The notes under the pieces are model-generated. The model made no database searches. It saw only the letters and a program-made list of their open reading frames with translations, and had not been told where the DNA came from. A DNA stretch of 35,528 nt from an uncultured Lachnospiraceae bacterium (GTDB lineage Bacteria > Bacillota > Clostridia > Lachnospirales > Lachnospiraceae): positions 1 to 35,528 of the forward strand of contig CANOVJ010000044.1 of the NCBI GenBank assembly GCA_947570615.1, given 5' to 3'. Shown one piece after another: positions 7,632-33,050 of the stretch (positions within the stretch are counted from its first letter, which is position 1; each line of letters opens with the position of its first letter). The position numbers and the translations under genes are program-made.

Positions 7632-8783
7632 ATGAAAATATTGTTTTTACAGTGGAAGTGCGTGGTGGAGCAGAAAGATTTGGAAGATGCTTTTGTTCAG
7701 GAGGGCCACAGCCTGGTAAGTTTTTGGTTTTCTCCCCGCGAGATTCTCTATGGAGATCCTTCGGGCTTTGAAAAAAATGTGACAGAGGTTATGCAGAAGG
7801 AACATCCGGATATTGTTTTTACCGTAAACTATTATCCGGTTATTACAAATATCTGCAGTAAAAGGAAGATAAAATATGTTTCCTGGGTTTACGATTCCCC
7901 ATTTGACTGGATGTATTTTAAGGAGATCATGGATCCCTGCAATCTGGTTTACACATTCGATAAAGAGCTGGCCATGGAGTTTCACTGCGCAGGCATCAAC
8001 ACGGTGCAATATCTGCCGATGGCAGTGAATACAGATCGTTTGGATATTCTTACGGAAGGGCTGCCCATGATGTATAATGTGTCTTTTGTAGGAAATTTTT
8101 ACAAGGACGCAGATTTTTTCTCCGAAAAAAGGTCCCAATTGTCTGATTATACAAAGGGGTATTTGGATGCGGTCAAGGAAGCGCAGCTGAGAATATCGGG
8201 GTATAGCCTGGTTTCAGAAGTAATTGGGGGGGCCGTTTTGGATGAGCTGAGCAAGGTGTATTTACGGTATCCCATTCCCGGTGATCTGCGGACCGATAAG
8301 TATTTTATGGCGGAGTCCGTGATCAATCCTTGGATTACATGCATAGAGCGTATGGGGCTATTGGAGACTGCGGCGAAAAATTTTGGGTTGGATCTGTTTA
8401 GCAAAGAGAGAGACTTTATTTTGCCGAACCTGAACAACCGCGGACCTGTCAGCTACTGTGACGAGATGCCTAAGGTATTCCGGCAAAGCAGGATCAATCT
8501 GAATATCAGCCGCAGGGGCATGAGAAGCGCTGTTCCTCTTCGCTGTTTTGATGTGATGGGCAGCGGGGGATTTCTTTTAAGCAATTTTCAATCCGGTTTT
8601 CTGGATATGTTTGTACCGGACCAGGATTTTGTTTTTTATGACAGCAAAGAGGATTTTGTGCAGAAGATCGGATACTATCTGGCTCATGAAGACGAGAGAG
8701 CGGCGATCGCCAAAAACGGTCATGATAAGGTTGCCGCAAAGCATACATACAGGCATCGGGTGAGGGAAATGTTCAATCAGTAA
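7632..8783 (+). CDS. CgeB-like glycosyltransferase (DUF3880-type N-terminus, GT1-like C-terminus)
   Basis: This 383-aa cytosolic protein resembles the CgeB/spore-maturation-like glycosyltransferases, which are GT-B proteins often found in flagellar and surface-glycan loci. The N-terminal half has MKILFLQWKCVVEQKDLEDAF and the aspartate-rich VSWVYDSPFDWM segment followed by YTFDKELAMEF and YLPMAVN. The C-terminal half has the donor-binding-like block INLNISRRGMRSAVPLRCFDVMGSGGFLLSNF, a typical GT-B acceptor/nucleotide region. It is the first gene after the flagellar terminator; the ribosome site is modest. Donor and acceptor cannot be read from the sequence. The family call is inferred from motif memory. 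Confidence 0.8.
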   Translation: MKILFLQWKCVVEQKDLEDAFVQEGHSLVSFWFSPREILYGDPSGFEKNVTEVMQKEHPDIVFTVNYYPVITNICSKRKIKYVSWVYDSPFDWMYFKEIMDPCNLVYTFDKELAMEFHCAGINTVQYLPMAVNTDRLDILTEGLPMMYNVSFVGNFYKDADFFSEKRSQLSDYTKGYLDAVKEAQLRISGYSLVSEVIGGAVLDELSKVYLRYPIPGDLRTDKYFMAESVINPWITCIERMGLLETAAKNFGLDLFSKERDFILPNLNNRGPVSYCDEMPKVFRQSRINLNISRRGMRSAVPLRCFDVMGSGGFLLSNFQSGFLDMFVPDQDFVFYDSKEDFVQKIGYYLAHEDERAAIAKNGHDKVAAKHTYRHRVREMFNQ

Positions 8784-8803
8784 AAGAAAGAGGTGATGAG
8801 GAT

Positions 8804-9697
8804 ATGATAAAACCAGATCGGAAATTTTTTGAAAAAGAGACGCGATGCGATTTTCTGGTAGATGAAAAGATGAAGAAGATCTGGGCCGTGGAACTGGAGA
8901 TGCTGCAAAGATTTGACGAGGTGTGCAAAAAGCATGATCTTACCTACTGGGTGTTTTACGGTACTCTCTTGGGGGCGGTGCGCCATCATGGTTTTGTTCC
9001 CTGGGATGATGACATTGATCTGGCTATGCTTCGGGATGACTATGAGAGATTCCAGGCCCTTGCGCCTTATGAATTTACGGAGCCCTATTTTTTCCAAAGT
9101 TCTTATACGGACAGGATCGTATGGCCGTTTTCGAAGATCAGGGACAGCAGGACCACAGGGATTGAATTTCGGGATCTGAAGGATGTGAATCAGGGGATCT
9201 TTATTGATGTATTTCCTCTGGATAGTGTGCCGAGCCTTGATGAGGCGAAAAATGATGATGTTTTTGCGACGCAGATGCTGCTGTGGAATGTTGTCACCGA
9301 TCCGGCCAGGGTATTGCTGGGCGTGAAACAGGAGTTAATAGAGGGAAAAAGACGGATAGAAGACGTGCAGATCCTTCTGGATATTTCTAAAAAGGATATT
9401 AAAGAAAGGTTCCGGATTTTCGAAAACGCCAATGTCGCCCGTTTTGGAGAAACCGAGGAAGTAAACTATATAATGGGGGCCTTTGGAGGGAGTAATACTA
9501 TGAAAAGGGAGTGGTTCCGGGATACGGTGTATCTTCCCTTTGAATATATGGAGGTTCCGGTTCCGGCTGAATATGATAAGATCCTGACCCGGCGCTATGG
9601 GGATTACCATCGGCCGGTCAAAGGGGGAAGCACTCACCAGAATATTATCCTGGATCCGGATATGTCTTACAGAGAATATTTTGCCAAATACCTTTAA
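8804..9697 (+). CDS. LicD-family phosphotransferase (first copy)
   Basis: LicD enzymes transfer phosphocholine or a related phospho-group from a CDP-linked donor to a glycan. The diagnostic block is present: VFYGTLLGAVRHHGFVPWDD followed by DIDLAM, with the metal-binding Asp run. Further on, WPFSKIRDSRTTGIEF and GIFIDVFPLDSVPS are typical of the family. The protein is 297 aa and has a GAGGTGATGAGG site before the ATG. The second LicD in the window (32241-33050) is clearly divergent, so this is not a recent duplication. Given the phosphonate and cytidylyltransferase genes nearby, the donor may be a CMP-phosphonate rather than CDP-choline; that is inference. Confidence 0.88.
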   Translation: MIKPDRKFFEKETRCDFLVDEKMKKIWAVELEMLQRFDEVCKKHDLTYWVFYGTLLGAVRHHGFVPWDDDIDLAMLRDDYERFQALAPYEFTEPYFFQSSYTDRIVWPFSKIRDSRTTGIEFRDLKDVNQGIFIDVFPLDSVPSLDEAKNDDVFATQMLLWNVVTDPARVLLGVKQELIEGKRRIEDVQILLDISKKDIKERFRIFENANVARFGETEEVNYIMGAFGGSNTMKREWFRDTVYLPFEYMEVPVPAEYDKILTRRYGDYHRPVKGGSTHQNIILDPDMSYREYFAKYL

Positions 9698-9716
9698 AGA
9701 AAGGGGAATGTCTGCT

Positions 9717-10445
9717 ATGAGTGTTCTGGTTTTATCGGATCTCCACGGCAATCTGTCCGCGTTTCAGGCAGTTCTTGACCGGGCGGCAAAGGATCATGAC
9801 ATCACGTCCTGCATCCTGCTGGGGGATCTGATCGATTATGGGATGTGTTCCAATGAAGTGATCAAGATGGTTGAGAATTTGCCCTATAAGATCCTATGCA
9901 GCATACGTGGGAACCATGAGGATGCGGTGATCCGGGACGAATACAGCCGTTTTTCTTCTGACAGGGGACGAGACAGCGCCAGATATACCAGGAGTATCCT
10001 GACGCCGGATTCCTGGGACTACTTAAACCGCAAAATGGCGCCAGATGGAAAAGCGGAATTTGCAGTTAACGGAAAGAAATGCCTGGCAATCCACGGCAGC
10101 CTAAAGGATCCGTACTGGAAGAGCATCCGCCCTGAGGAGGCGCTGGAGGAATATATCGCATATGATTACGTGTTTTCGGGACATTCCCACCTGCCCCACC
10201 TGTTTGAGCGGTACTACGGGTGCGCGGATGGAGTCAGGCGGAACAAAAAGAAAGTGGTATTTATTAATCCCGGTTCTGTGGGACAGCCGAGAAATCTAAA
10301 TAACCGGGCGCAATTCGCGGTTTTGGATATGGAAAATGAACAGATTGTTTTTGAGAAGACAGCGTACGATATTGACAAGGAACAGGCGGCCTTTTGCGGC
10401 CGGACAGACGATTTTTATCGTGAAAGACTTAGATGGGGGATTTAG
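9717..10445 (+). CDS. Calcineurin-like metallophosphatase/phosphodiesterase (YfcE/ApaH-like)
   Basis: All binding motifs of the two-metal phosphoesterase fold are visible: VLVLSDLHGN (Asp, His), LLGDLIDYG, SIRGNHEDAV, an FSGHSHLPHL box and FINPGSVGQPRN. With the start used here the protein is 242 aa. An open frame runs further upstream inside licD, but AAGGGG at 9701-9706 is 10 bases from the ATG at 9717 and only 1 base from the alternative ATG at 9708, so 9717 is preferred. It probably removes a phosphate or hydrolyses a nucleotide intermediate in the glycan pathway; the substrate cannot be deduced. Confidence 0.86.
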   Translation: MSVLVLSDLHGNLSAFQAVLDRAAKDHDITSCILLGDLIDYGMCSNEVIKMVENLPYKILCSIRGNHEDAVIRDEYSRFSSDRGRDSARYTRSILTPDSWDYLNRKMAPDGKAEFAVNGKKCLAIHGSLKDPYWKSIRPEEALEEYIAYDYVFSGHSHLPHLFERYYGCADGVRRNKKKVVFINPGSVGQPRNLNNRAQFAVLDMENEQIVFEKTAYDIDKEQAAFCGRTDDFYRERLRWGI

Positions 10446-10448
10446 ACG

Positions 10449-11441
10449 ATGGATTTATATGTGATCAGCGGCGTTACAGGAATGACAGGAAACGAATTGT
10501 CCAGAAAGCTGGTGGCCGGCGGACACAGAGTCATTGGCTTTGACAATTTTTTTGCGTCTTCTATCACGACGGTGGAGGACATTTTGGAAAACCAGTGGTT
10601 TTCCTTTTATGAGTTTGACATCAATAACCGGGAGCAGATGGAAATGCTTCGGGACATGGTCCGTGAGGAGACGGAAATGGGCCGGTTTGACCGGGTGGTC
10701 TACATAAACTGCGCGGCAGTGGTCCACACGGAACATTTCTATCATGTGAACCGGACTTTTGAGACCAATGTGCTGGGGATGAAGGCTTTTTTGGAGCAGG
10801 CGGAGGCTGTGGGGGCCGATACGTTTATCAACTGTTCCACATCCGAAGTGTACTCCATGAATTCCTGGGGAGAGCATGGGGTGGCGGAGTCGGACTATAT
10901 CACCATGGCCAACGCCGAGCACAGCCAGAGAACCAGTTATGCCACGGGAAAGCTTTTGACGGAGTTTTTTATGAAGGAGGCGGTGATGGAGGGCAGGATC
11001 AAAGGCTGTTCCATCCGCTTTGCCAATGTGTACAGCAAAAATGAGCGGTATCCCAAACATATCATCCCACACATTTTGATCCAGCTGAAAGAGCATGGCG
11101 GCGTGGAACTGCTGGAGAACTCCAAGGTAAATTACCGGACCTTTCTGCACAATGAGGACAGCTGCGGGGCGGTGATCGCTTTGATCCAGGCAGAGGACGC
11201 GCTGGACGGTTCTGTGTACAATGTGGCTACCGACGAGGAGATCTCCATTCTTGACCTGGTGAAGCTGTGCGCCGAAAAACTGGGGATTGAAAATCCGCGG
11301 ATCACCTTTAACGGGTACCGGGAGTCTGACCCCAAAAGAAGGCTGCTGAATACGGACAAGATAAAGGCCAGGACAGATTGGAGGCCCCATATTACATTGG
11401 ATCAGGGGATTGCAATGTGTGTTAAGGAGATGGCAGATTGA
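10449..11441 (+). CDS. NAD-dependent epimerase/dehydratase (extended SDR), nucleotide-sugar type
   Basis: This 330-aa Rossmann protein acts on a nucleotide-linked sugar or related substrate. The dinucleotide motif is GVTGMTGNEL, the catalytic Ser/Thr region is NCSTSEVYS and the YxxxK pair is in TSYATGKLLTEF. A C-terminal sugar-binding block (RITFNGYRESDPKRRLLNTDKIKARTDWRP) is typical of extended SDRs. It starts 3 bases after the phosphatase stop and overlaps the following gene start through TTGA, so it sits in a tight operon. Substrate and exact reaction (epimerase, 4,6-dehydratase or reductase) are not decidable from this sequence. Confidence 0.85.
   Translation: MDLYVISGVTGMTGNELSRKLVAGGHRVIGFDNFFASSITTVEDILENQWFSFYEFDINNREQMEMLRDMVREETEMGRFDRVVYINCAAVVHTEHFYHVNRTFETNVLGMKAFLEQAEAVGADTFINCSTSEVYSMNSWGEHGVAESDYITMANAEHSQRTSYATGKLLTEFFMKEAVMEGRIKGCSIRFANVYSKNERYPKHIIPHILIQLKEHGGVELLENSKVNYRTFLHNEDSCGAVIALIQAEDALDGSVYNVATDEEISILDLVKLCAEKLGIENPRITFNGYRESDPKRRLLNTDKIKARTDWRPHITLDQGIAMCVKEMAD
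11424..11430 (+). promoter_or_regulatory. Ribosome binding site supporting a TTG start
   Basis: AAGGAGA ends 7 bases before the TTG at 11438. No in-frame ATG or GTG gives an equally complete N-terminus, so this site decides the start of the nucleotidyltransferase gene. Confidence 0.65.
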
Positions 11442-12184
11442 AGATACTGATCGTAACGGTGGCAGGGCTGTCAGCCAGATTCAGCCAGTCTCTGGGATAT
11501 TCCTGCCTTAAATGCTTATATTATGAGAACCGTCCGGAAGAGTCTCTGCTGCACCGCATGCTTTGCCGGGACAGCGGATTTGACCGCTTGGTGATCGTAG
11601 GCGGATTTCTGTATGAGGAACTGGAAAATGCCCTGAAAAGGGATTTTGGGGAGTTTCAGGACAAGATCACGCTCGTGAAGAATGATCATTACGCGGATTA
11701 TGGGTCCGGCTACAGCCTGTATTTGGCATTGGACAAGATCAAAGATATGGATTTTTCGGAGGCGGTGTTCGCCGAGGGAGATCTGTATGTGGACAGGGAC
11801 AGCTTTCGGAAGGTCTGCAGCAGTCCGAGAAACGTGATAACCTGTAGTCAGGAACCCATATTGGCCAACAAGGCGGTGGCGTTTTACTTTGATTCCGGCT
11901 ATGGGATCCATTATATTTATGATACCGAACACAGCGCTCTGGAGATCAGGGAACCGTTTTTGGGTATTTTTAATTCCGGGCAGATCTGGAAATTCGCGGA
12001 TCCCGGGCGCCTTCGCCGGATCACGGAGTCGGCAGGGGAGAGGGAGAAGAGAGGGACCAACCTGGAACTGATCCAGCGGTATTTCGGGGATCTTTCCAGG
12101 GAGCAGTATGAGATCGTCACGTTTAAACAGTGGATCAACTGCAATACGGTCTCTGATTACCGGATGATAGAAGCAAACGAATAA
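11438..12184 (+). CDS. LicC/PntC-like nucleotidyltransferase
   Basis: This 248-aa GT-A-fold nucleotidyltransferase probably activates a phosphorylated or phosphonate substrate with CTP, or a sugar phosphate. The N-terminus MKILIVTVAGLSARFSQSLG is a degenerate G-x-S-x-R loop, with Lys in CLKCLYY. The motif N-x2-Y-x3-G-x3-S-L-x2-A (NDHYADYGSGYSLYLA) and EGDLYVD, a metal-binding Asp, match the LicC family layout. The same spaced motif occurs in the PEP-mutase fusion and in the HisC-like fusion of this window. The start is TTG, overlapping the previous TGA. The next gene is a TagF-like CDP-alditol phosphotransferase, which fits CTP as the nucleotide. Confidence 0.72.
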   Translation: MKILIVTVAGLSARFSQSLGYSCLKCLYYENRPEESLLHRMLCRDSGFDRLVIVGGFLYEELENALKRDFGEFQDKITLVKNDHYADYGSGYSLYLALDKIKDMDFSEAVFAEGDLYVDRDSFRKVCSSPRNVITCSQEPILANKAVAFYFDSGYGIHYIYDTEHSALEIREPFLGIFNSGQIWKFADPGRLRRITESAGEREKRGTNLELIQRYFGDLSREQYEIVTFKQWINCNTVSDYRMIEANE

Positions 12185-12205
12185 GGCGAATGTTTGGAGG
12201 ATTCT

Positions 12206-13774
12206 ATGAGGAGATTTCACAGAAGGCAGCTATTGGAAAATATCAATATACTCCGGGAGGCAGGCAATGCGCTGAACGGGCAGTCAGGAGAAAAAAAGAT
12301 CAATTTATGCGCGGATATACAGGAATTTATTGCAGCTGTGCTGAGTTTTCTTGACAGCGTGGCCGGGGATGATTCCCTGCTGACAGATGGTTTTGTCCAG
12401 TTATACAGGATGCTGCTGAAGGTAAGCCGGGATGAAATCTCCTCCCAACAGCTGGTGGTTCAGATCGACGAGATGAAAGGCTATGTTGAAAGCAAAGCAG
12501 AGACAGATAAACTGGAGATGGCTTTTCTTTGCTATAAAGCCAGCATGAGCGATTGCCTGGAGAGTGTTTATCTGGCAGCGAAAGAAGATGCTGGATGTGA
12601 CGCGTACTTTATTCCGATCCCGTATTTTGACAGAACCCCGGAGGGGACAATCGGGCAGATGCATTGTGAGGCAGAAGGCTGCTATTCCGACAGGATTTTG
12701 CTGACGGACTGGAAGACGTATCGTATACAGGAACGGCATCCGGATGTTATTTTTATTATGAATCCTTATGATGAGTATAATTATATTACTACGGTCCATC
12801 CCGACTTTTATGCCAGCCGTCTGAAAGATCAGACGGAATTATTAGTATATATACCTTATTATATACATGAAGAGTCCATTGATCCCATTGTGGGATGTCT
12901 TCCGGGCGTTCTTTGGGCGGATAAGGTTATGGTGCAGTCGGAAAAGGTGAGAGAGCAGTACATCAGCAGCATGATCCGGGAGGGGAAAGGGATTACGCCG
13001 GAAACGGCGGGGAAGAAGATAGAGGCGCTTGGATCACCGAAAACAGATAAAGTGATAACTCATAAAGCGGAAGATTATGAGATCCCCAAAGCATGGCAGA
13101 GGCTTCTGACGCCTGATGGGGCAAAAAAGAAACGGGTGGTGCTGTATAATCTATCTGTATCCTGCGCGCTGGCTCACTCTATGGAGGAGAAACAGCAGCG
13201 CTATCTGGATAAGCTGCGGCATGTGCTTGGGTTTTTCCGGACCAGAAATGATGTGATCCTGTGGTTTCGCCCCCATCCGCTGTTAGGAGAGACGTTTGCG
13301 TCCGTTCAGCCTAAGATGTATGAGGAATATCAGAATATTATCCGGGAGTATCAGGAATGGGGCGGAGGAATCTATGATGACAGCCCGCAGCTGAACAGGG
13401 CGGTTGCCTGGGCGGACGCCTGTTATGGGGACAGCAGTTCGGTTAACCTGCTTTTTCAGCTTGTGGGAAAACCGGTTCTTTTGCAGCGCGTGGAGGATGC
13501 CGGTAAAGAATTTGCCGTCAGGAAAACGAGGCAGCAAGTAAAAGAGCAGATGGAACTGCTGATTGGGGACCGGGAACGGTATCATTATTTTATCTATGGC
13601 GAGGCGTCGGCCGATGGACAAAAGGGAGAATTTGCCTTAGCGGATTTTGTTGAATATATGGATGTGATCAGGGAATACGGACCGGTCCAGTCTGCCAGAT
13701 ACCGCGCGTGTTACGCCAATGCCGACGCAACGGCAGGACAAAAGATCTATGAATATGTAAAAAACTTGAAATAG
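12206..13774 (+). CDS. TagF-like CDP-glycerol/CDP-alditol phosphotransferase with extra N-terminal module
   Basis: The C-terminal part (about residues 115-470) looks like the GT-B domain of teichoic-acid polymerases: YFIPIPYFD, VLYNLSVSCALAH, the WFRPHPLLGE His-Pro box and a CYGDSSSVNLLFQLVGKPVLL block (TagF-like Asp-Ser-Ser). Such enzymes transfer glycerol phosphate or similar from a CDP donor. Residues 1-100 (MRRFHRRQLL, KINLCAD, MLLKVSRDEI) are not part of that family. They align with the standalone protein at 16290-16601 at roughly 45% identity by hand alignment. The ATG at 12206 follows GGAGG by 5 bases, and the paralogue starts at the same residue, which supports this start over a TTG at 12194. 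Confidence 0.78.
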   Translation: MRRFHRRQLLENINILREAGNALNGQSGEKKINLCADIQEFIAAVLSFLDSVAGDDSLLTDGFVQLYRMLLKVSRDEISSQQLVVQIDEMKGYVESKAETDKLEMAFLCYKASMSDCLESVYLAAKEDAGCDAYFIPIPYFDRTPEGTIGQMHCEAEGCYSDRILLTDWKTYRIQERHPDVIFIMNPYDEYNYITTVHPDFYASRLKDQTELLVYIPYYIHEESIDPIVGCLPGVLWADKVMVQSEKVREQYISSMIREGKGITPETAGKKIEALGSPKTDKVITHKAEDYEIPKAWQRLLTPDGAKKKRVVLYNLSVSCALAHSMEEKQQRYLDKLRHVLGFFRTRNDVILWFRPHPLLGETFASVQPKMYEEYQNIIREYQEWGGGIYDDSPQLNRAVAWADACYGDSSSVNLLFQLVGKPVLLQRVEDAGKEFAVRKTRQQVKEQMELLIGDRERYHYFIYGEASADGQKGEFALADFVEYMDVIREYGPVQSARYRACYANADATAGQKIYEYVKNLK

Positions 13775-13794
13775 GGTAGTCCGTCTGCTATAGT
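13766..13794 (+). promoter_or_regulatory. Sigma-A promoter (extended -10) before the phosphonate genes
   Basis: TTGAAA (13766-13771), a 17-base spacer and TATAGT (13789-13794) form a 5/6 and 5/6 match to the housekeeping consensus, and TGC directly before the -10 supplies an extended -10 TGn. The -35 lies in the last codons of the TagF-like gene. Transcription would begin near 13801, leaving a leader of about 30 bases to the next ATG. It would let the dehydrogenase, ppd, small protein and pepM genes be expressed apart from the upstream genes. Confidence 0.7.
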
Positions 13795-13832
13795 ATTCTA
13801 TAGAACATTATTAAAGAATAAGGCGGTGGAGT

Positions 13833-15008: not shown

Positions 15009-15043
15009 TCAAAAGCCGGAATGAGAGGGAGGAGCGGATTAAA

Positions 15044-16162: not shown

Positions 16163-16289
16163 GACTGCCTGGGAAATCCTAAGGGGAATGTTTGCGGATG
16201 TTGGTTAAGACTGTAAGAAATCTGACGATATTATAAAGAGGGGATTTACAGAATGAAGTAAGATAAAAGGCGAGAAATCGGAGGTTTTT

Positions 16290-16601: not shown

Positions 16602-16631
16602 GAAACAGGTTGTTCGGGGTTAGGAGGTAAG

Positions 16632-18224: not shown

Positions 18225-18228
18225 AGAG

Positions 18229-18264: not shown

Positions 18265-18271
18265 CTATCTG

Positions 18272-18954
<683 letters not shown>

Positions 18955-21982: not shown

Positions 21983-21998
21983 TGTGTTTTCTCCCTGG

Positions 21999-23977: not shown

Positions 23978-24003
23978 CCAATTCTCCCTTCCACAATTAG
24001 ATT

Positions 24004-25083
24004 TTACCAATTTCCTAATATAAAATCATTTAATTTATACTTGTTAGGCTGGTCTATATCCCAAGGGAAGTAAACGTTTGTCTCCTCAAAGGAATAATAA
24101 TTTTTATTCAGATAAAGTACCTCTATTGTATTTGGTACAATAACGCCATTATCACATTCCGCGTAATTACAATTATTTCCATGAATCCAGACCGCTTGAT
24201 GTGTTTCATTCAATTTTTGTAAAGACTTTTTAATTCTTTCTTTATTCTCCAATTTTGTTATATTATGAAGTTCAAAGACCATTTGTTTAAAATTGCTAAT
24301 TATGGATGGGGATGCACTTTCTAAAAAATCATATTCGGCTCCTTCTACATCCATTTTCAATATTAAATTAGTTTCTTCTGTATGCGCATTATTTTTTAAA
24401 ATAGTTTCTATGGAAAAGAGATGATTCATGGAATCATCTTTCCCAGAAATTCCCGCTTTGAAATAGTGGAATTTTTTGTGATATTCGGGAAGACCTGTAA
24501 TCGTATGATCATACATATATATGTCTATTCCATACCTTTCCGCCATTTCTCTGTCCCACGAAACATCATCGCATATTCCAAAGCTATAGGCTTTCATATT
24601 TGTTTCAATATCATCCAGCATGACATATCCACCATCATTCATCCGCCCGATTCGGACATACTGCTTATTAGAAATAAGGCGTTTGATCCCCAACAATTCT
24701 TTGAACTCTTTAAACCATCCTTCCTTATCGTTCACTGGTATGATTAATGGTTCCAGTACATTAATTATCTCAGCATTAGGGAATTTGATTTTTATTTGGT
24801 TATATAATTTATTATTTAATTCCTTATCTGTTGCGACTAAAAAGAAAAGCAAGCTTTTATCATCCATATTTATTAAGGAATATAAGGGAAAAATATTTTT
24901 ATTGTAGTTACACAGTACGTTATCAATAATATAGTTTTCATGCAGATCATAGGCAGAATTTAAAATATTTTTAAATATCATTCCTTGTTCGCCGAAAGGA
25001 AAAATAATCAATTTTTTTTCGGGATATTTATTTAAATTCGCCCTAATTATCTGCATATAATGTGAATGGAAATCTATTCCCAT
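24004..25083 (-). CDS. FkbM-family methyltransferase-like protein with N-terminal Rossmann-like module
   Basis: This is a 359-aa protein with two parts. Residues about 20-110 ([20 protein letters not shown], then a second strand ending in IIDN) look like a nucleotide-binding Rossmann half-domain similar to PglD N-termini. Residues about 130-350 carry FkbM-type features: [36 protein letters not shown], and [18 protein letters not shown], the MDVEGAE signature. FkbM proteins are usually SAM-dependent O-methyltransferases for sugars. The start at 25083 has AGGAGG 10 bases upstream, whereas the ATG at 25104 has none, so the gene begins just after the previous stop. Its base composition is markedly A+T-rich. 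Confidence 0.8.
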
Positions 25084-25100
25084 ATTCGAGATGCCTCCTA

Positions 25101-26348: not shown

Positions 26349-27444
26349 AATCCGCAAGTGAAATATGATAATACTTTTCAACAGATTTAATAAACATATC
26401 GTTTTGACTTCCGCCAACATTGGTATTGCTAAGAGCACTGCTATTGTCAGTAACTACCGGCATTATCTGGCTGTGTTTTCCTCTGACATACACCACCGGG
26501 GTATTGTTTTGAATCTGCATAAATTTAAGCCATATATCGTCATTTCTCATACAAATATTTTTAAATACCTCTTTATTAAAAAGTTCCTGTGGCATACATC
26601 GCGGAGGATAGAGAACGCCGCCAACGCCGAGGGCAAACAGTCCCATGGACGGTTTTGCAACACTTTTGCAATCTCCGTCCCACATATTGTAGTTTAAAAG
26701 ATTTCCGTTCTCATCTTTCATCATTCTATGAACCATTCTGGCTGATACAGCGTAAGGATAACGTTTGTAACTTTCCAATAATCCGCTGATCAGATCTTTT
26801 TCATAATAAATATCATCATCTACAGTAATAACGATGTCGTCAGGGTGTTCTTTTATCGCGTAATAATATTTTTTATGAACACTTATATTTTCTGGTCGAA
26901 CCAGTATCTCTAATCCACGATCACGCATAGCAAGCAAACGTTGGGGAACTTTCTCGCCTTCATCCAAATATAATATCACCCGATCTGCCTTAACACTTTG
27001 TTCCAGTATACTTTCTATTGTCAAATAAGCTCTTGGCAGCCTTTTGGAATAACTTGTTAATGATACGATCACTTTCTGATCTCTAGGTTCTGTGATATTC
27101 ACCCCAGATTCCTGTAAAAACATCTTATGGAGTTTATTGTTCATAAAAAAATACCGAAACATTTCAACTCGGATAATTGTATCTTTGAAGTACCATTCGT
27201 CAATATCATCGTACCATGTCTTAAGATATTGTACCGCTTCTCCTCCTGCTGACATAGCGATAATAATGTAATCAATATCATCCAGATTTAACTCTGATGC
27301 TGGCTTCACTTCATAACCATAAAATTTGGATTTGGATGGAGTCGTTTCGGTAAAGTTCTTTATATGGATAAGATCTTTATTCTGTTGGAAAAAGTCCATA
27401 TTGTTCCTCGCGATTTCTCCGGTCCCATATACGATTACATTCAT
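26341..27444 (-). CDS. GT-A glycosyltransferase with N-terminal Rossmann-like module
   Basis: Residues 1-75 (MNVIVYGTGEIARNNMDFF, DIDYIIIAMSAGGEAVQYL) form a short nucleotide-binding-like module. Residues about 120-367 are a glycosyltransferase: VIVSLTSYSKRLPRAYLTIES, SVKADRVILYLDEGE, and DDIVITVDDDIYYEKDLI, where the Asp triad is the metal/nucleotide-sugar site. The Rossmann-like head resembles those in the FkbM protein at 24004-25083 and in the C-terminus of the GT2 at 30990-32210. The ATG has AAGGGA and AGGAGG upstream. It overlaps the next gene by 8 bases. The sugar donor is unknown; GDP-D-rhamnose is a natural candidate, since its pathway is in the same operon. Confidence 0.8.
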   Translation of the reverse strand: MNVIVYGTGEIARNNMDFFQQNKDLIHIKNFTETTPSKSKFYGYEVKPASELNLDDIDYIIIAMSAGGEAVQYLKTWYDDIDEWYFKDTIIRVEMFRYFFMNNKLHKMFLQESGVNITEPRDQKVIVSLTSYSKRLPRAYLTIESILEQSVKADRVILYLDEGEKVPQRLLAMRDRGLEILVRPENISVHKKYYYAIKEHPDDIVITVDDDIYYEKDLISGLLESYKRYPYAVSARMVHRMMKDENGNLLNYNMWDGDCKSVAKPSMGLFALGVGGVLYPPRCMPQELFNKEVFKNICMRNDDIWLKFMQIQNNTPVVYVRGKHSQIMPVVTDNSSALSNTNVGGSQNDMFIKSVEKYYHISLADYV

Positions 27445-27470: not shown

Positions 27471-28583
27471 TTACTTTTCTAAAATCTTTTTTACATGCGT
27501 AATGGTTTGGTCATCAAGCTCTGGCCTTATCTGAGACGTTTCAAACAGGATTTTAGGCGTAAGAAGGCTGTCTTCCGGCAATAAAATATCAAATAAACAT
27601 GGCTTGTCATCCTTTAGCCAATCGCAGTAATGATCCAGTTCTTTATAAGATGACAGCGCTGCGGCCCTGATTCCATAAGCTTTGGCAATTTTCTGAAAAT
27701 CGGGAACCGAATAGCCTCCCAAAGCGGTTGTATTCGCAAATCTGTCGTCATGTTCTAAATGCTGTGTTTCACTGATTTTACCAAGAACTTTGTTGTTTAG
27801 AATAAAAATTTTTACAGGAAGTTTTTCTCTTTTCACGGTCTCCAATTCCTGAATATTCATTTGAAAACCACCGTCCCCAGTAATACAATAAGTAATCATA
27901 TTTCCCAGAGCAACAGACGATCCTATCGCGAAGGGGAGGCCGCATCCCATCGTGCCATAACCGCCGCTGATATGGATTCTTCCTTTATCGCCCTTCAATA
28001 CCAGAGATTGCGCGCACCAGCACTGATGCATGCCCACATCAACGGAAACAATTGGGTTTGGAGGTAATAATGATCCGATTTTTTCAACAGCATGGTTCCC
28101 GGGCTGTTTATCATAATGATCCAGTATTCTCTTCGCCTCCATACACTGATTTTTCCAATCCGAGTAGTCAGAGTCTGTTTCCGAAAGAAGCATTCGCATA
28201 AAATCCCTGGCATCTGTTTGAAACTTTTTTTCGTTTTCTTTAATATTACGGCTTAATTCATATTCATCAATATCACATCGCGCCAATTCTGCTTTTGGAG
28301 CAAAATTATCCGTATATCTCCCAACCTGACGGATTCCTAACCTTGCCCCTACACTGACAACCAGATCACATTCATTAAGAATCATATTGGCAATTCGATT
28401 ACCATGTGTTCCAATGAATCCAATATGTAGATGATCCTGTGCAAGGTCCACGCCATTCATCGTAGTTAAAACTGGTATATTCGTTTTACGGGCAAATTCA
28501 TGAACCATATCAACCGCGTTCGCGCTCCGTACTCCATTACCCACCAGCAATACTGGCTTGCTGTATGTCGAGTGGAAAATCAA
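27471..28583 (-). CDS. C-terminal part of a TPP-dependent acetolactate-synthase-like enzyme (split gene)
   Basis: This frame holds the central and PP domains: KPVLLVGNGVRSANAV, MNGVDLAQDHLHIGFIGTHGNR, IHISGGYGTMGCGLPFAIGS and the TPP/Mg motif CITGDGGFQMNIQEL followed by FILNNKVLG. It continues the enzyme begun in the gene at 28537-29070 but in a shifted frame. Family members have a linker of about 35 residues between the PYR domain end (xxDxPxDxQ) and xRPVxxxGxG. Here the two blocks abut directly, so a deletion of a length not divisible by three is likely. The TTG at 28583 sits 8 bases after a strong AAAGGAGGTG site, so separate translation is possible. Confidence 0.75.
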   Translation of the reverse strand: MIFHSTYSKPVLLVGNGVRSANAVDMVHEFARKTNIPVLTTMNGVDLAQDHLHIGFIGTHGNRIANMILNECDLVVSVGARLGIRQVGRYTDNFAPKAELARCDIDEYELSRNIKENEKKFQTDARDFMRMLLSETDSDYSDWKNQCMEAKRILDHYDKQPGNHAVEKIGSLLPPNPIVSVDVGMHQCWCAQSLVLKGDKGRIHISGGYGTMGCGLPFAIGSSVALGNMITYCITGDGGFQMNIQELETVKREKLPVKIFILNNKVLGKISETQHLEHDDRFANTTALGGYSVPDFQKIAKAYGIRAAALSSYKELDHYCDWLKDDKPCLFDILLPEDSLLTPKILFETSQIRPELDDQTITHVKKILEK

Positions 28584-29070
28584 TGATTACACCTCCTTTC
28601 CGCCCCAGCAGCGCCATATTATAAGCGCGGCTGACTATATCAGGAAATCCTTCACTGCTGTTAGCTGTTACAGAGTATTTTGTAATATTTCTTGTCATTG
28701 ACACAATATCCATCTCCTGAAATCCGTTTTGCCGGATACCTGAAAAACCTTTCATCTCATTGATCGGTACATTGCCGCAGATCCCCATCACTGGGTATCC
28801 GTCAAACCAGGCATCCGCCAGTCCGCCCAGGCCATTTACCGCGCCTGGGCCGGATGTTGTAAAATAAACACCTATTTTTCCGCTTGTTCTGGCAAATCCG
28901 TCAGCTGCCAAGGAACAGCCTTGCTCATTGTAGCAGACATGGGTTTTTATCTTATTCTTCTGCCTGTACAGCGCGTCCATAAAAGGTACAATGTATCCTC
29001 CTGCATAGCCAAATACGTCCGTTACTCCGTGATTGATCAGGAAATCAACTAAATATTCAGAACAGTTCAA
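28537..29070 (-). CDS. N-terminal PYR part of a TPP-dependent acetolactate-synthase-like enzyme (split gene)
   Basis: This 177-aa frame contains a full PYR domain: EYLVDFLINHGVTDVFGYAG, the cofactor-activating Glu in CYNEQGCSLAADGFART, GVYFTTSGPGAVNGLGGLADAW and the end block GGVIIDFPLDIQ, after which it soon stops. The rest of the enzyme is in the overlapping frame at 27471-28583. The start is TTG, overlapping the upstream TGA (TTGA) and preceded by a G-rich AAGGGGGG site. The enzyme would condense or decarboxylate a 2-oxoacid. In sugar loci, relatives such as YerE add two-carbon branches to 4-keto sugars, and here Gmd makes such a 4-keto sugar. That role is speculative, and the split may have inactivated it. 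Confidence 0.75.
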   Translation of the reverse strand: MNCSEYLVDFLINHGVTDVFGYAGGYIVPFMDALYRQKNKIKTHVCYNEQGCSLAADGFARTSGKIGVYFTTSGPGAVNGLGGLADAWFDGYPVMGICGNVPINEMKGFSGIRQNGFQEMDIVSMTRNITKYSVTANSSEGFPDIVSRAYNMALLGRKGGVIIDFPLDIQQASIAGG

Positions 29071-30953
29071 TATTTTTTCCCCCCTTTTACAGCTTCTATG
29101 GTAATTCTGAATTTACGCATAAAATCCTTCATTGTGTCCATAGGGGCAACATTGATTCTATAAAACTGTTCTCCGTTATATTCAAAGATTCTGTACAGAT
29201 ATCCCTGTTGGATCATTTCTTCTCTTACAGCGGCGGCATTAACGCCTGTTATCTTCATATACAAGAAGTTTGTATCAGAACGATATGGATGAACATTCTC
29301 CATAGTTGCCAGTTCATGATAAAGCCATTCTTTGACAGTATGGATTTCTTGACGAATGTGATCATAATAAGCATCATCCTTCAGACATTCCATGGCTGAC
29401 TTTCTGGCAATAACAGGAAGGCGAAGGAGCGGCAGATCAAGCCACAGTGCCTTCATGGCCCTTTTGCTTGCGATTCCATACCCTAACCTAAGACCTGCTA
29501 AAGCAAAAAATTTGGAAAATGTCCGGCTGAACATTACGTTATCATAATTGTTTATAAAGTAATTAACATCAATCGGGTCATATTCAAAGCCAAAGTACGC
29601 CTGGTCTACAAATACGAACGATATAGGATTATTTTTTACAATCTTCTCCAAATCCTCAGGAGTTATTAGATTTCCGGAAGGCATAGCAGGGCTTGTTATA
29701 ATAATAAATTTAGAGTTGTTTTTTTGGGCTTTCTGCATTAAGTCATCTATATCATGGTAGCATTTATCACCATCTTCATGAAAATGATAAAATGACTTAC
29801 TTCCGAAACGGTAATCTACCACGCCTGGATAATAGCTCCAATGCGGAAGCGGAAGAAGAACATTATCATTCTCGCCGACCATAATGGTAATCATACTTCT
29901 TACAATTTCAGATCCGCTATTATGCAAAAAAATGTTGTCAGATTCAATATTGTATTTTCTTGAAATTTCTACAATAAGATCATCTGTTTCCTGTGAATCA
30001 TACAAAAACAGTTCCTCAGAAACTGCTTCGTGAAATGGGATAAGCGCATTTGGAGACGGCCCCCACAGATTCTCATTGAAATGTAATCTTCCGTACCTGA
30101 TATCTGTTTTGACTCCGGCATATCTGGTTACGCCATTATATTTACCATATAGATCATCTGCGATTACCTTCTTGGAATAGATGGTAAAATCCGGATCAAA
30201 CATTTCAAACTCTTCAAGCGTATCAAATTCCAGCACAAGCCCGTCATTCATTTTATTTGCGGTAATAGGAAGCTCTGAAAAATGGCGGATATGAAAATCG
30301 TCAATCAGTAAATTCCAGATTTCCGGATTCCCATATTCTGCTTCAAGCAATTCAATAAACTTTTTGGAAAAACTTCTTGACCAGAAATTCGCGCCAATTG
30401 TGAACCACTGTTCCTTCCCGCCCCTTTTAATGCTTTCAATATAGCCTCTGTCATCCTCTACGATACAATATTCATCTGCGAAATCTTTAGTATAAGCGCA
30501 GGTATAGATAGACTCATAAACATATTGTTCGAAAATGTTTTCTTCATAATAGTTATCCGCACAGCAAATATAAGAATTTCCCAAGTAATTTCTTGCCGCA
30601 TATATTGAAGAAATATTATTTTTCGTTTTATACTCTTTATTCTCAACGAGTATAACATCATACTTGTCAGATAAGTAGGAAAACATTTCCGATTTATACC
30701 CGACCACAACAATAATATTTGTAATCCCGGCTTCTTTTAACTGGCGAATTTCCCTTTCAATAAGAACTTCACCTCTGACTTTAAACAGCCCTTTAGGGAG
30801 GATTTTAGAGAGAGGCGCGCATCTTTTTGATTCTCCTGCCGCCATAATTATGGCGTTATCAACGTGATACGGCTTTAATAACGCCGTTTCTTTTTCGGTA
30901 ATTTCTCCTAATCTGCAGCGGGCCATCAAGCTGATGAATTCTTCTTTCTTCAT
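29067..30953 (-). CDS. LicC/PntC-like cytidylyltransferase fused to a HisC/CobD-like PLP aminotransferase or decarboxylase
   Basis: A short helical lead (residues 1-30) is followed by a nucleotidyltransferase (about 31-270): NAIIMAAGESKRCAPLSKIL, FKVRGEVLIEREI, the LicC-type motif NKEYKTKNNISSIYAA and CADNYYEENIF. From about residue 290 comes a fold-type I PLP domain: LHFNENLWGPSP (compare HisC NENPxGPSP), LHNSGSEIVRSMI, FVDQAYFGFEYD and FSRTFSKFFALAGLRLGYG, where the SK lysine holds PLP. PntC fused to an aminoethylphosphonate transaminase is known, but there the transaminase is a different PLP class. This HisC/CobD-like partner could instead decarboxylate or transaminate a phospho-amino acid. 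The fusion suggests a CMP-activated amino-alkyl phosphate or phosphonate. 628 aa; the stop overlaps the next start. Confidence 0.85.
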   Translation of the reverse strand: MKKEEFISLMARCRLGEITEKETALLKPYHVDNAIIMAAGESKRCAPLSKILPKGLFKVRGEVLIEREIRQLKEAGITNIIVVVGYKSEMFSYLSDKYDVILVENKEYKTKNNISSIYAARNYLGNSYICCADNYYEENIFEQYVYESIYTCAYTKDFADEYCIVEDDRGYIESIKRGGKEQWFTIGANFWSRSFSKKFIELLEAEYGNPEIWNLLIDDFHIRHFSELPITANKMNDGLVLEFDTLEEFEMFDPDFTIYSKKVIADDLYGKYNGVTRYAGVKTDIRYGRLHFNENLWGPSPNALIPFHEAVSEELFLYDSQETDDLIVEISRKYNIESDNIFLHNSGSEIVRSMITIMVGENDNVLLPLPHWSYYPGVVDYRFGSKSFYHFHEDGDKCYHDIDDLMQKAQKNNSKFIIITSPAMPSGNLITPEDLEKIVKNNPISFVFVDQAYFGFEYDPIDVNYFINNYDNVMFSRTFSKFFALAGLRLGYGIASKRAMKALWLDLPLLRLPVIARKSAMECLKDDAYYDHIRQEIHTVKEWLYHELATMENVHPYRSDTNFLYMKITGVNAAAVREEMIQQGYLYRIFEYNGEQFYRINVAPMDTMKDFMRKFRITIEAVKGGKKY

Positions 30954-30989: not shown

Positions 30990-32210
30990 TTAAAGGCTCC
31001 TTATATTAATGTTACTCAGACACTTTTCAAGAAACTCCTGACTGATGGCCTCAGGCTCCATACATGCTATTTTAGAATTCTTTATTCCCATTTCCAATAG
31101 ATAGTTTTTTACTTTTTGGGAAACGGTGGCGTCCTGGATCGCAATCGCAATATAATCATAGGTTACTTCATGGATATATTCGGGTTCGCATGGCGTGAAC
31201 CCTCCGATTGTTTGATCCCTTACATTCTGGTCTATCCACGCGGCAACCGAATACTTATGATCGTTCGTTATACTTTCCATAAGTCTGATACCCGTAAGTC
31301 CGGCTCCGTAAACGATGATCCGGCTACCTTCTTTTATGGAAAGATACGGATATAAAAATCCACTGGAATGATGATAAAAAACATCGTAATCAACTTCAAG
31401 CAGTATTCTGGTCATCATGAAAAGCAGCCTTTTATACATATGAGGAGCGCAATGATGCCTGTCCAGTTCCGTTTTAATCGATTGATAAACCAGGGGAATG
31501 CTATGTCTGGTACATCTGCCTGGCAGATGGGTAATTGAAGATGGTCTCATGACATAGTAATAACTGGTTTCTCTCATGACATAAACACTGTCTGCTTCCA
31601 AAAGACAGAGCCAAAAAAAGACCAGGTCACTTGCTGTCAAAATATTGCTGTCAACCATCATCTGTATCCGCAGATGTAATTCTCTTTTGATTCCCCAGCA
31701 CCACATACATGGAATCAGTCTTCTGATAAAACAAACATCTATATCCTGCAGATAAGAACAAATATCAGCGGAAGAATAAGAACCTTCCTCAATACAGGGT
31801 TCTTCTAAAGAATAGGTATCCCCCCACTGAATATATCGGCCATTTAAATAGACCATATCGGCGCCTGACGAGATACCTTTACGGACCAACGTTTCAATTC
31901 TGGTGCTGCCGATCCAATCATCTCCGTCTACATTTATGACATATTCACCGGTTGCGGCTTTTGCCCCTGCTTTGCGCGCGCCGACTACGGTACCTTCATT
32001 CTCTTTATGGATTACAACAATACGTGAATCTTTTTCCGCATAAGTATCACATATTTGGCTGCTCCCATCTGTGGAACCGTCATCTACCAGAATGATCTCC
32101 AGATTTTGATATGTCTGGTGTATGATACTTTCTATACACTTTGCAAGATAATCTTTTACATTATAGATGGGTACTATGATACTGATTAAGACGTCATTAT
32201 CCATATTCAT
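30990..32210 (-). CDS. Family 2 glycosyltransferase with C-terminal Rossmann-like module
   Basis: Residues 5-220 form a GT2 domain: ISIIVPIYNVKDYLAKCIES, IILVDDGSTDGSSQICD, VVGARKAGAKAATGEYVINV followed by DGDDW (the catalytic metal Asp). Residues about 300-395 (SRIIVYGAGLTGIRLMESI, WIDQN, YDYIAIAIQDATVSQKV) are a Rossmann-like module as in PglD-type domains, which has counterparts in two other proteins of this operon. The ATG at 32210 follows GGAGG by 5 bases; a second ATG two codons on is less well placed. It is the second gene of the - strand operon, between LicD and the cytidylyltransferase fusion. No membrane helix is visible, so it is cytosolic or peripheral. Confidence 0.88.
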   Translation of the reverse strand: MNMDNDVLISIIVPIYNVKDYLAKCIESIIHQTYQNLEIILVDDGSTDGSSQICDTYAEKDSRIVVIHKENEGTVVGARKAGAKAATGEYVINVDGDDWIGSTRIETLVRKGISSGADMVYLNGRYIQWGDTYSLEEPCIEEGSYSSADICSYLQDIDVCFIRRLIPCMWCWGIKRELHLRIQMMVDSNILTASDLVFFWLCLLEADSVYVMRETSYYYVMRPSSITHLPGRCTRHSIPLVYQSIKTELDRHHCAPHMYKRLLFMMTRILLEVDYDVFYHHSSGFLYPYLSIKEGSRIIVYGAGLTGIRLMESITNDHKYSVAAWIDQNVRDQTIGGFTPCEPEYIHEVTYDYIAIAIQDATVSQKVKNYLLEMGIKNSKIACMEPEAISQEFLEKCLSNINIRSL

Positions 32211-32240
32211 TCTTTCCTCCGATATTTTTAGAAGCCTGAT

Positions 32241-33050
32241 TTATAACTTTACCTTACTTGCCGGGTGAACCTGCCGGTTTTCAAGCGGTGGCAGGTTCAT
32301 GTAATCTCCATACAGCATTTTTAAATAGCTATCGTAATGTTTAAAAATCTTAAACGAATACCCTTCAAAGTCCTTTTCCATTGATTGGTCATAGAACTTT
32401 CGCGGCATCCCATAACGGCATTGCTTTGGGAACGGAAAGGTCACATGACGTACCAGCCGTGTCTTTTTACGGCTGGTTCTGTCGGTCAGCATTTCTAGCT
32501 GCCAGAACCAGAAATCCCTGGGGATTTTGCTGATCAGGGTATACCACGCTCGTAAAAAAGGAGATTTCTCAGCCTTTTTCCCAACACTTGAATACTGTCC
32601 CTTACGGATACAGTAACAATAGAAGTAATGTAGTCTGCGCAGCATAGGGTTATCCGGAACATTGTCGCAATAAAAAATATCAATACACACACCAGTATGA
32701 CATTTGACATGTTCTTGTCCTTCTCTTAGGAAGGTAGTGCCATTCCGCCTCATTTTGGCAAACCCCCAAAGGTAATGTTTATCTGTGCGGTAATCCTGAA
32801 GAAAAAAACGTTCCGTGTTTAACTCTCTTTTGCATGCGTTATAAAATTTTTCGTATTCTTCACGCAGCATGATGATATCCGCATCATCATCCCATGGTAT
32901 AAAGCCGTCATGGCGAACGGCTCCAAGCAGAGTACCTCCGTCCAGAAAATATTGGATATCATATTTTCGGCAGATGCGATCTACCTCTATGAGCATTTCA
33001 AGTTCCATTAGCTGGAGTTTGCGTAGGAGTTCTCCCTCTATCTTGACCAT
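32241..33050 (-). CDS. LicD-family phosphotransferase (second copy)
   Basis: This 269-aa LicD protein has the core YFLDGGTLLGAVRHDGFIPW followed by DDDADIIM, with the metal-binding Asp cluster, then GFAKMRRNGTTFL and CIDIFYCDNVPDNP. LicD enzymes move phosphocholine-like groups from a CDP donor to a glycan. It is the first gene of the long - strand operon and lies two genes before the LicC-like fusion, so donor synthesis and transfer are paired. It differs strongly from the LicD at 8804-9697 outside the core, so the two may use different acceptors or donors. The ATG follows an AAAGGG site at about 9 bases. Confidence 0.9.
   Translation of the reverse strand: MVKIEGELLRKLQLMELEMLIEVDRICRKYDIQYFLDGGTLLGAVRHDGFIPWDDDADIIMLREEYEKFYNACKRELNTERFFLQDYRTDKHYLWGFAKMRRNGTTFLREGQEHVKCHTGVCIDIFYCDNVPDNPMLRRLHYFYCYCIRKGQYSSVGKKAEKSPFLRAWYTLISKIPRDFWFWQLEMLTDRTSRKKTRLVRHVTFPFPKQCRYGMPRKFYDQSMEKDFEGYSFKIFKHYDSYLKMLYGDYMNLPPLENRQVHPASKVKL

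Follow-up and report, generated by a model that had tools for sequence, protein, structure and literature searches.

In 2022, 2-AEP was reported on FliC of C. difficile, an organism in which, according to the accessible part of that report, pepM was not found and the source of the AEP is unknown; its authors proposed that other gut bacteria supply it (PMC8861647). The earlier note's statement that no phosphonate-decorated flagellin had been described was therefore wrong. Fusion of PEP mutase to PF12804 has been described before (PMC6697681, where the string 'flagell' is absent from the text available), and the available text on clostridial flagellar glycosylation islands contains neither 'phosphon' nor 'LicD' (PMC13317340). 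Our literature searches found no published linkage of pepM to flagellin. Small serine recombinases with inverted repeats around a promoter are familiar from Hin (Salmonella flagellin) and Mpi (Bacteroides capsule).

Here we describe a 35,528-nucleotide stretch of DNA (the window) from an uncultured Lachnospiraceae bacterium, in which C–P genes adjoin the flagellar operon. On sequence evidence, we consider it probable that the locus is a flagellar glycosylation island equipped to supply its own phosphonate. Phosphonate on flagellin itself is already known chemically.

Architecture of the locus

The flagellar and chemotaxis operon (2–6415, + strand) encodes FlhA (FHIPEP, cut at its 5′ end), a sigma-70 factor that is probably of the FliA type (1880–2650), two rod-type proteins (2676–3497 and 3516–4310), CheC, CheD and a CheW-receiver protein, all recognized by Pfam, which confirms the flagellar side adjoining the locus. 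A choline-binding-repeat protein (6606–7526, +; PF19085, 39.7 bits) lies between the che genes and an intrinsic terminator hairpin (7544–7599, +), which separates this operon from arm 1. The predicted fold of −28 kcal/mol (z −6.85, equalled by 0 of 200 shuffles) upholds the terminator claimed previously, and a hairpin of this strength led us to reject read-through from the che operon into arm 1; a short-loop terminator scan of the + strand of the window found nothing and missed it. A second hairpin (18225–18266; −19.7 kcal/mol, z −5.39) lies between the two convergent arms.

Arm 1 encodes phosphonate synthesis

The PEP mutase of arm 1, fused to a MobA/LicC-like domain (16632–18224, +), scores 332.5 bits against TIGR02320 (cut-off 319.55) and 343.9 bits against the PEP mutase structure 1m1b, and phosphonopyruvate decarboxylase (Ppd; 15044–16162, +) scores 450.8 bits against TIGR03297 (cut-off 312.5). 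Both assignments made in the earlier note are thus sound. The motif EDKX5NS is present as EDKKFPKTNS and is intact in all ten PEP mutase proteins aligned. The fused NTP domain is LicC-like (1jyk, 39.9 bits) and in the alignment lacks the usual G-x-G-T-R loop. This domain is atypical, and arm 2 alone could make phospho-amino-alcohol decorations, as would be expected if PEP mutase or Ppd were inactive and the locus made only such ordinary groups. We regard this as very improbable, given that both enzymes exceed curated cut-offs, that the motif is intact and that each gene is a single open frame.

On the same strand are a CgeB-like glycosyltransferase (7632–8783, +; DUF3880 and Glyco_trans_1_2 in Pfam), a candidate flagellin O-glycosyltransferase with homologues near flagellin in L117, L125, L128 and L129; a LicD-type phosphotransferase, LicD 1 (8804–9697, +; PF04991, 160.7 bits); a calcineurin-like phosphoesterase (Mpase; 9720–10445, +; longest frame from 9597; PF12850, E 3.5e-20); an epimerase/dehydratase-type SDR (Epim; 10449–11441, +; PF01370, E 3.1e-27); and a DUF6564 nucleotidyltransferase-like protein (11438–12184, +; PF20202, 309.9 bits) with weak LicC similarity (1jyk, E 2.9e-5). 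NADb, an NAD(P)-binding enzyme (13833–15008, +; PF03435, E 6.6e-6), gave dehydrogenase matches in PDB sequence searches, all of them weak. It is tied to the phosphonate set: five strong matches occur in 397 genomes, all five among the 51 PEP-mutase genomes counted.

No class-V AEP transaminase was found in arm 1 or elsewhere in the Pfam scan of 34 window proteins, in which the HisC/CobD-like domain of arm 2 is the sole aminotransferase-type domain. For this reason we do not call arm 1 an AEP pathway, nor do we claim an AEP-type Pnt cluster. The product may therefore be an unaminated or altered phosphonate and not 2-AEP, unless it is aminated by the HisC-like domain in arm 2.

Arm 2 and an invertible-looking element

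PGM/PMM, a GDP-mannose pyrophosphorylase-like protein, an SDR reductase and GDP-mannose 4,6-dehydratase (18961–24010, −; Pfam and NCBIfam) constitute a predicted supply of GDP-6-deoxyhexose. The dehydratase passes its NCBIfam cut-off (503.9 versus 415); the reductase (21999–22934) and the pyrophosphorylase-like protein pass none, so that the GDP-rhamnose pathway proposed earlier stands as GDP-deoxyhexose genes, with rhamnose unproven among the 6-deoxy sugars. Arm 2 continues with an FkbM-type methyltransferase, u445 (no known family) and a GT2 glycosyltransferase (24004–27444, −; Pfam); an acetolactate-synthase-like TPP enzyme (27471–29070, −) split into two overlapping frames (27471–28583 and 28537–29070), identically split in L065; a LicC-like cytidylyltransferase fused to a HisC/CobD-like aminotransferase (29067–30953, −; 1jyk, 118.9 bits); and a further GT2 glycosyltransferase with LicD 2 (30990–33050, −; Pfam; LicD 2 at 32241–33050, 137.7 bits). 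The two LicD proteins and three LicC-like domains counted previously were all recovered, that of the DUF6564 protein being the weak one.

A small serine recombinase (18272–18907, −; PF00239, with Sin, Tn552 and DNA-invertase matches) is the candidate invertase of an invertible-looking element (33270–33420), in which 24-nt inverted repeats flank 103 nt containing a sigma-28-like site (33351–33327, −) that resembles the flagellar sigma consensus. The element sits just beyond the locus first noted, between arm 2 and a strain-variable right-hand cassette cut by the contig end (33468–35528, +; FemAB-like protein, methyltransferase and GT2 in Pfam). The sister assembly G037 is 98.6–99.8% identical to the window (99.6% over 21.6 kb) and has no match to this cassette, and thus glycan genes inside the flagellar locus differ between strains. 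In G037 the spacer of the element occurs in both orientations with the same right flank after each, the site lying beside a one-base gap; glycan expression may therefore be phase-variable through the element.

The site preceding arm 2 was found with a strict sigma-28-like pattern, which has two matches in the window against 0.7 expected, and one of the two falls within a gene; at two mismatches the pattern is at chance level (45 found, 40.4 expected). No flagellar-sigma-like site was found upstream of arm 1. Strict sites stand 84–165 bases before flagellin in L124, L125, L128 and L129, and none was found before flagellin in the own-species loci (L002–L006 and L067) or in L017, L020 and L117. 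Further strict matches lie elsewhere in L119, L124, L127, L128 and L130.

A transferase family tied to flagellin

The TagF-like transferase of the earlier note is u526 (12194–13774, +), which owes this placement to aligned family members and not to a domain match of its own: Glyphos_transf matches three of six aligned members with E no higher than 1, the best being 9.3e-6, and does not match the window protein. A relative in L119 reaches 1.3e-4 and 21.5 bits, below the cut-off of 22.1, and PDB sequence searches with u526 gave nothing credible. The N-terminal part of u526 recurs as a separate gene at 16290–16601 (+; own-genome match, E 6.1e-21).

Among the 48 strongest non-own genomes of the 91 with u526, u526 lies within 10 kb of flagellin in at least 12 (expected at most 0.98, P about 1e-10; four distance limits tried), and 10 of these 12 are outside the tested PEP-mutase genomes. 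Flagellin is present in all 48, a count with no family-wide flagellin rate set against it. A u526-family protein stands beside flagellin and GT2 in L017, L020 and L119; that of the window is on the flagellar island, yet does not adjoin flagellin.

Linkage to flagellin in relatives

Both arms in G037 lie between FlhB–FlhA–CheW and FliD–FliS–FlgK–flagellin, with about 52 kb from the start of arm 1 to fliD. Two species of one other genus (L017 and L020) have flagellin–GT2–GT2–u526–PEP mutase on one strand, the flagellin of the L020 run being a short copy, and the genome of L020 (G042) has a second locus, flagellin–GT2–GT2–u526–LicD–PEP mutase. L117, from another genus, has flagellin–CgeB-like glycosyltransferase–flagellin–FkbM–PEP mutase–LicD–LicD followed by Mpase (54%)–Epim (67%)–DUF6564 (49%)–NADb (62%)–LicD. 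Same-strand flagellin–glycosyltransferase–PEP mutase runs occur in three genomes. In L129/L130, flgK, fliD, fliS and flagellin lead to NeuA/NeuB-like genes and then to class-V aminotransferase–PEP mutase–PntC-like–Ppd, and in L019 transporter-like genes stand between flagellin and PEP mutase. Many of these neighbours were named solely by BLAST against our own query set or by first residues (fliW, flgL, flgN, NeuA, NeuC, DegT outside L065 and transporters, as well as the AEP transaminase of L019 and L121). The neighbourhood check suggested earlier thus placed PEP mutase alongside flagellin or other flagellar genes in several genera, and the linkage is not unique to the window genome.

The arrangement in L117 also bears on whether the arms belong together. 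Arm 2 and the right-hand cassette could make the flagellar glycan, with the phosphonate of arm 1 serving some other purpose, for example in a small secreted molecule, as the terminator ahead of arm 1, the hairpin between the arms and the lack of a flagellar-sigma-like site upstream of arm 1 would allow. This seems improbable to us, because the flagellin-linked glycosyltransferase and u526 families sit within arm 1, in L117 a single run after flagellin contains both the arm 1 set and a gene of NTP-HisC-like type, and neither an exporter nor a resistance protein appears in the Pfam results for the window proteins scanned.

In 6 of 35 genomes with both, no more than 20 kb separates PEP mutase from a match to PF00669, a family model that also matches hook-associated proteins (expected at most 1.26, P 0.0013), and each of the six has a flagellin-like ORF of 269–297 aa near PEP mutase; within 10 kb the count is 2 of 35, which is not significant (P 0.15). 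Six distance limits were tried, and the expectations, here and for u526, take no account of contig ends and represent upper limits. The 50 PEP-mutase genomes tested were 4 non-own genomes over the cut-off and the 46 best non-own others, with exclusion from G062 (E 3e-29) downwards; 15 of the 50 had no flagellin match.

Several carriers would suit a different reading, in which the phosphonate decorates capsule, teichoic acid or another envelope glycan and the flagellar region is a recombination hot spot for glycan genes. G232, a genome without a flagellin match, has PepM, Mpase, DUF6564 and NADb, the greater part of the arm 1 set. G095 has the full set on a contig that also carries LicD-, NeuA-, NeuB- and NeuC-like genes; the 34 kb examined there gave no flagellar match, and the nearest PF00669 is about 50 kb off. 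Outside the species, the PEP mutases most similar to that of the window are those of C. porci (L016) and UC5.1-1D2 (L021), which accompany the phosphonate set and several LicD-like genes, with no match to 26 flagellar-region query proteins in the about 81 and 60 kb read. Those queries, which include two glycosyltransferases, were named from reading the sequences (FlhA, FliP, FlhB, FliD, FliS, FlgK and one flagellin are Pfam-confirmed); in ten more distant loci (L022–L031) they gave no flagellar match, and a glycosyltransferase match in L024 only. The set of G370 is split over two contigs, of 27.9 and of 4.3 kb, which do not extend far enough for linkage to be judged. A universal linkage of PEP mutase to flagellin is ruled out by G232, G095, L016 and L021. 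Furthermore, LicD proteins elsewhere have wall and LPS glycans as substrates.

We nonetheless consider an envelope glycan rather unlikely, in view of the three same-strand runs and the family-wide enrichment, the strong tie of u526 to flagellin and the flagellar-sigma-like site ahead of arm 2. The original suggestion of a phosphonate on flagellin or a surface glycan gains from a C–P pathway that is encoded and flagellin-linked in several genera; flagellin itself is a presumptive acceptor, and the set also occurs with no flagellin near (G232, G095 and C. porci).

Proposed pathway and implications

If the locus is a flagellar glycosylation island, PEP mutase and Ppd would, by family assignment, yield phosphonoacetaldehyde, which the SDR, NADb, the DUF6564 protein and the phosphoesterase may convert and nucleotide-activate, probably as a CMP-phosphonate. 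LicD and/or u526 would transfer the phosphonyl group onto a sugar, and the CgeB-like glycosyltransferase would place this acceptor sugar on flagellin Ser/Thr, both by analogy with the scheme put forward for the type A glycan of C. difficile. Arm 2 would provide GDP-6-deoxyhexose and a second CDP-activated phospho-group (through LicC–HisC and LicD 2), with an amine possibly from its HisC-like domain, and its predicted promoter is one that the serine recombinase could flip.

A broader proposal is possible but tentative. In motile gut clostridia, a six-gene set (PEP mutase, Ppd, phosphoesterase, SDR, DUF6564 and NADb, with no AEP transaminase) might place a phosphonate other than 2-AEP on flagellin, and the serine recombinase and flagellar-sigma promoter might choose between the arm 2 glycan and a strain-specific second cassette.

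Because relatives described here hold the C–P pathway in flagellar islands, the question of the AEP source for C. difficile becomes testable, and island genes may explain the origin of a tag already seen on the flagella of one species. If this is true, phosphonates would be a flagellar decoration in several genera of Lachnospiraceae and could affect motility, phage adsorption and host sensing of flagellin. In having no AEP transaminase, the gene set suggests a branch of phosphonate biosynthesis that is as yet undescribed.

Comparison with known systems

As described in the part of the source available, the C. difficile type A genes (cd0240–cd0244) resemble this locus in having a glycosyltransferase near flagellin, a LicC-like nucleotidyltransferase, a methyltransferase and a TagF-like transferase (PMC10714395), and the minor 2-AEP variant of the C. 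difficile flagellin glycan is a phosphonate on flagellin, as proposed here (PMC8861647, in part). The C–P pathway is inside the island here, whereas the accessible text reports no pepM there; the two are likened by description, not by sequence. No phosphoserine-phosphatase-like protein such as CD0241 appears in the Pfam results for the 34 window proteins, the phosphoesterase here being calcineurin-like, and so the locus may work like the type A system without being a member of it.

With the Pnt clusters of Treponema denticola, Atopobium rimae and Olsenella uli, as far as the available text describes them, the window has PEP mutase, Ppd, a LicC/PntC-like domain and LicD in common (PMC6697681). 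Arm 1 differs in lacking a class-V AEP transaminase, in its extra Mpase–Epim–DUF6564–NADb set and in its flagellar placement. Variable glycan genes in a flagellar locus, and NeuB-family genes near the island in G037, are shared with clostridial flagellar glycosylation islands (PMC13317340, in the part accessible). The resemblance to Hin and Mpi, seen here at the level of sequence, lies in a small serine recombinase gene and inverted repeats around a promoter-like site; in contrast to those systems, the site here resembles the flagellar sigma consensus and faces glycan arms.

Organization of the locus

The window spans the entire contig (35,528 bases) of a 4.05-Mb assembly that is given as 94.8% complete. 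Pfam profiles place FlhA, a sigma-70 factor encoded within the flagellar operon, two rod-type proteins, CheC, CheD and a CheW-receiver protein in the left 6.4 kb. After them, at the left edge of what we read as a flagellar glycosylation island with its own phosphonate supply, comes a choline-binding-repeat protein (6606–7526), followed by a strong terminator hairpin predicted by folding. Two ORFs near flagellin in the sister assembly (L067:10070–12758) are similar to this protein by BLAST (35–36% identity); for such proteins, a phospho-amino-alcohol carried by the flagellar glycan is a possible ligand.

Arm 1 (7632–18224, plus strand; Pfam and curated-family profiles) encodes, in order, a CgeB-like glycosyltransferase, LicD, a calcineurin-like phosphoesterase, an epimerase-type SDR, DUF6564, a TagF-like transferase (family u526), an NAD(P)-binding enzyme, phosphonopyruvate decarboxylase (Ppd), a copy of the u526 N terminus and a PEP mutase fused with a MobA/LicC-like domain. 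The N-terminal copy stands alone (103 amino acids; 16290–16601), directly before PEP mutase. A predicted hairpin separates arm 1 from the convergent arm 2 (33050–18272, minus strand; Pfam), which encodes LicD, GT2, a LicC–HisC fusion, a split acetolactate-synthase-like enzyme, GT2, u445, an FkbM methyltransferase, GDP-mannose 4,6-dehydratase, a reductase, a GDP-mannose pyrophosphorylase-like protein, PGM/PMM and a serine recombinase. The acetolactate-synthase-like gene (27471–29070) lies in two overlapping frames; the sister assembly has the same split, which is therefore not an error of one assembly, and the gene is either a split enzyme or a broken one.

Linkage to flagellar genes

In the sister assembly (Clostridiaceae bacterium C65_88_CS_BP; 98.6–99.8% nucleotide identity over pieces), the locus sits in a 422-kb contig. 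Upstream of the arms are FliP, FlhB, FlhA and che genes; downstream of both, a stretch of about 26 kb with additional genes, most of glycan type (IspD-like, LicD, DegT and two NeuB-family genes, one in pieces), leads to FliD, FliS, FlgK, two flagellins and GT2. This contig is broken by one base of N, but the join is supported by sequence, as the 215 bases on the left side of the gap are all found again on the right.

Six other loci (L016–L021) carry a PEP mutase of the window type at 65–81% identity. L017 and L020, from two species, share the one-strand order flagellin–GT2–GT2–u526–PEP mutase, the L020 flagellin being a short copy of 188 amino acids. L018 has flagellin and glycosyltransferase-like genes on the PEP mutase contig at a distance of about 32 kb, and in L019 flagellin is about 5 kb away, with transporter-like genes in between. 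No flagellar match occurs in the roughly 81 and 60 kb read around L016 (C. porci) and L021, or in ten more distant loci with short flanks (L022–L031); on the contig of the C. porci PEP mutase, more than 100 kb separate the locus from the nearest match to the flagellin profile PF00669. Our reading is slightly weakened because L017 and L020 represent a single genus and the ten distant loci have no flagellar match. A second locus in the genome containing L020, with about 40 kb between the two, is ordered flagellin–GT2–GT2–u526–LicD–PEP mutase (L119:8226–15761). Directly upstream of the C. porci phosphonate set is a TnpB-like protein (Cas12f1-like TNB domain; L016:6794–8155).

Among the 397 family genomes searched, a close copy of the window PEP mutase occurs only in its own genome, and PEP mutases below 40% identity are common. 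We surveyed 50 genomes with such PEP mutases for flagellin, which 35 encode. PEP mutase lies within 20 kb of flagellin in 6 of the 35, representing six genera (at most 1.26 expected, P = 0.0013), within 10 kb in two (P = 0.15) and within 40 kb in nine (P = 0.0002). Linkage of PEP mutase to flagellar genes, which the earlier note proposed to look for in related genomes, occurs in the sister assembly, L017, L020 and these six, but not in L016, L021, L022–L031 or the 15 of 50 genomes with no flagellin match. At L117, two flagellins, a CgeB-like glycosyltransferase, FkbM and PEP mutase precede the arm 1 set at 49–67% identity. L129/L130 runs from flgK–fliD–fliS–flagellin onward to class-V aminotransferase–PEP mutase–PntC-like–Ppd, and in L127/L128 and L124 fliD–fliS–flagellin is followed by glycan genes and then PEP mutase. 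PEP mutase is on the opposite strand in L125, and unrelated-looking genes intervene in L121.

The u526 family is associated with flagellin largely independently of PEP mutase. One genome (G232) has most of the arm 1 set with no flagellin match, in another (G095) the set and the closest PF00669 match are about 50 kb apart, and a third (G370) has it next to a CgeB-like glycosyltransferase, the contigs being short. The phosphonate genes probably form a module able to serve more than one glycan.

Predicted phosphonate chemistry

Both PEP mutase and Ppd of the window score above curated family cut-offs. The EDKX5NS motif, which separates PEP mutase from its relatives according to the available text of Rice et al. 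2019 (PMC6697681), is kept in the window protein and in all nine aligned relatives. Alignment of the fused NTP domain shows that the signature Lys and an Asp are kept; the G-x-G-T-R-type loop is absent there, in contrast to the PntC-like proteins that stand alone in L019 and L130. On sequence grounds, DUF6564, the place of which is occupied by another NTP-like ORF in L016, and the LicC–HisC fusion are candidates for phosphonate activation.

Pfam identified no class-V aminotransferase among the 34 window proteins scanned. Among the loci read, a class-V-type aminoethylphosphonate (AEP) transaminase match occurs in L019, L121 and L130, and the phosphoesterase–epimerase–NAD(P)-binding set in the window, L016–L018, L020, L021, L117, L136 and L137/L138; the two never co-occur. 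In L016–L018, L020 and L021 the set is only 25–37% identical to that of the window, and L020 gave no Ppd. L135 has the phosphoesterase, DUF6564, the NAD(P)-binding enzyme and two PntC-like ORFs; the epimerase was not recognized there, where ORF calling is poor.

The NAD(P)-binding protein is most likely a phosphonate enzyme, because all five of the 397 family genomes with strong matches (E below 1e-140) also hold PEP mutase, with 1.6 to 4.4 kb between the two genes when they share a contig. It may reduce phosphonoacetaldehyde.

A probable invertible element upstream of arm 2

At 33270–33420, 24-nt inverted repeats (96% complementary) surround 103 bases. The minus strand of this spacer carries TAAT-N14-GCCGATA, directed at arm 2, a pattern that resembles the flagellar sigma-28 consensus. 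The same loose pattern lies 84–165 bases upstream of flagellin in four relatives' loci but was not found before own-species flagellins, and confidence in the sigma-28-like assignment is only moderate for that reason.

The exact 103-base spacer is present in the sister assembly in either orientation (L065:11852–12456), with an identical flank to the right of each copy, and the repeats (up to two mismatches allowed) occur at this place only in both genomes. Inversion of the element is likely, judging from these arrangements, and the serine recombinase (18272–18907) is the natural candidate enzyme. Beyond the repeat, on its right side, the gene cassettes differ between the two genomes; the FemAB cassette of the window has no match in the sister assembly. 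GTCTGAC occurs nine times in the window against 2.35 expected. Four of these sites cluster at 33120–33308, three of them spaced 32–33 bases apart beside the inverted repeats, and might act as accessory recombinase sites or as regulator sites.

Comparison with known flagellin glycans

Every chemical and regulatory part of this system has precedent; what is new is their combination and its spread in the family. The earlier note knew of no phosphonate-decorated flagellin, yet the available text of Hensbergen et al. 2022 (PMC8861647) describes 2-AEP on the C. difficile flagellin glycan, the sole such report recognized among the open-literature papers listed, and states that pepM was not found in C. 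difficile. The listed titles and abstract openings, from open papers other than preprints, gave no link between pepM and flagellin genes. For marine phosphonate producers, the text available (PMC8931226) proposes cell-surface glycoproteins rather than flagellin.

In the C. difficile type A model, as given in the accessible part of Claushuis et al. 2023 (PMC10714395), the CDP-linked donor is proposed to come from a LicC-like enzyme, and the phospho-group to be transferred onto the flagellin sugar by a TagF-like one; work on P. aeruginosa PAO1 published in 2025 (PMC11833859, in part) broadens this model. In the window, the CgeB-like glycosyltransferase would attach the core sugar, and u526, LicD or both would carry out phosphonyl transfer. 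The parts fit the same logic as the type A glycan, with a C–P donor in the window.
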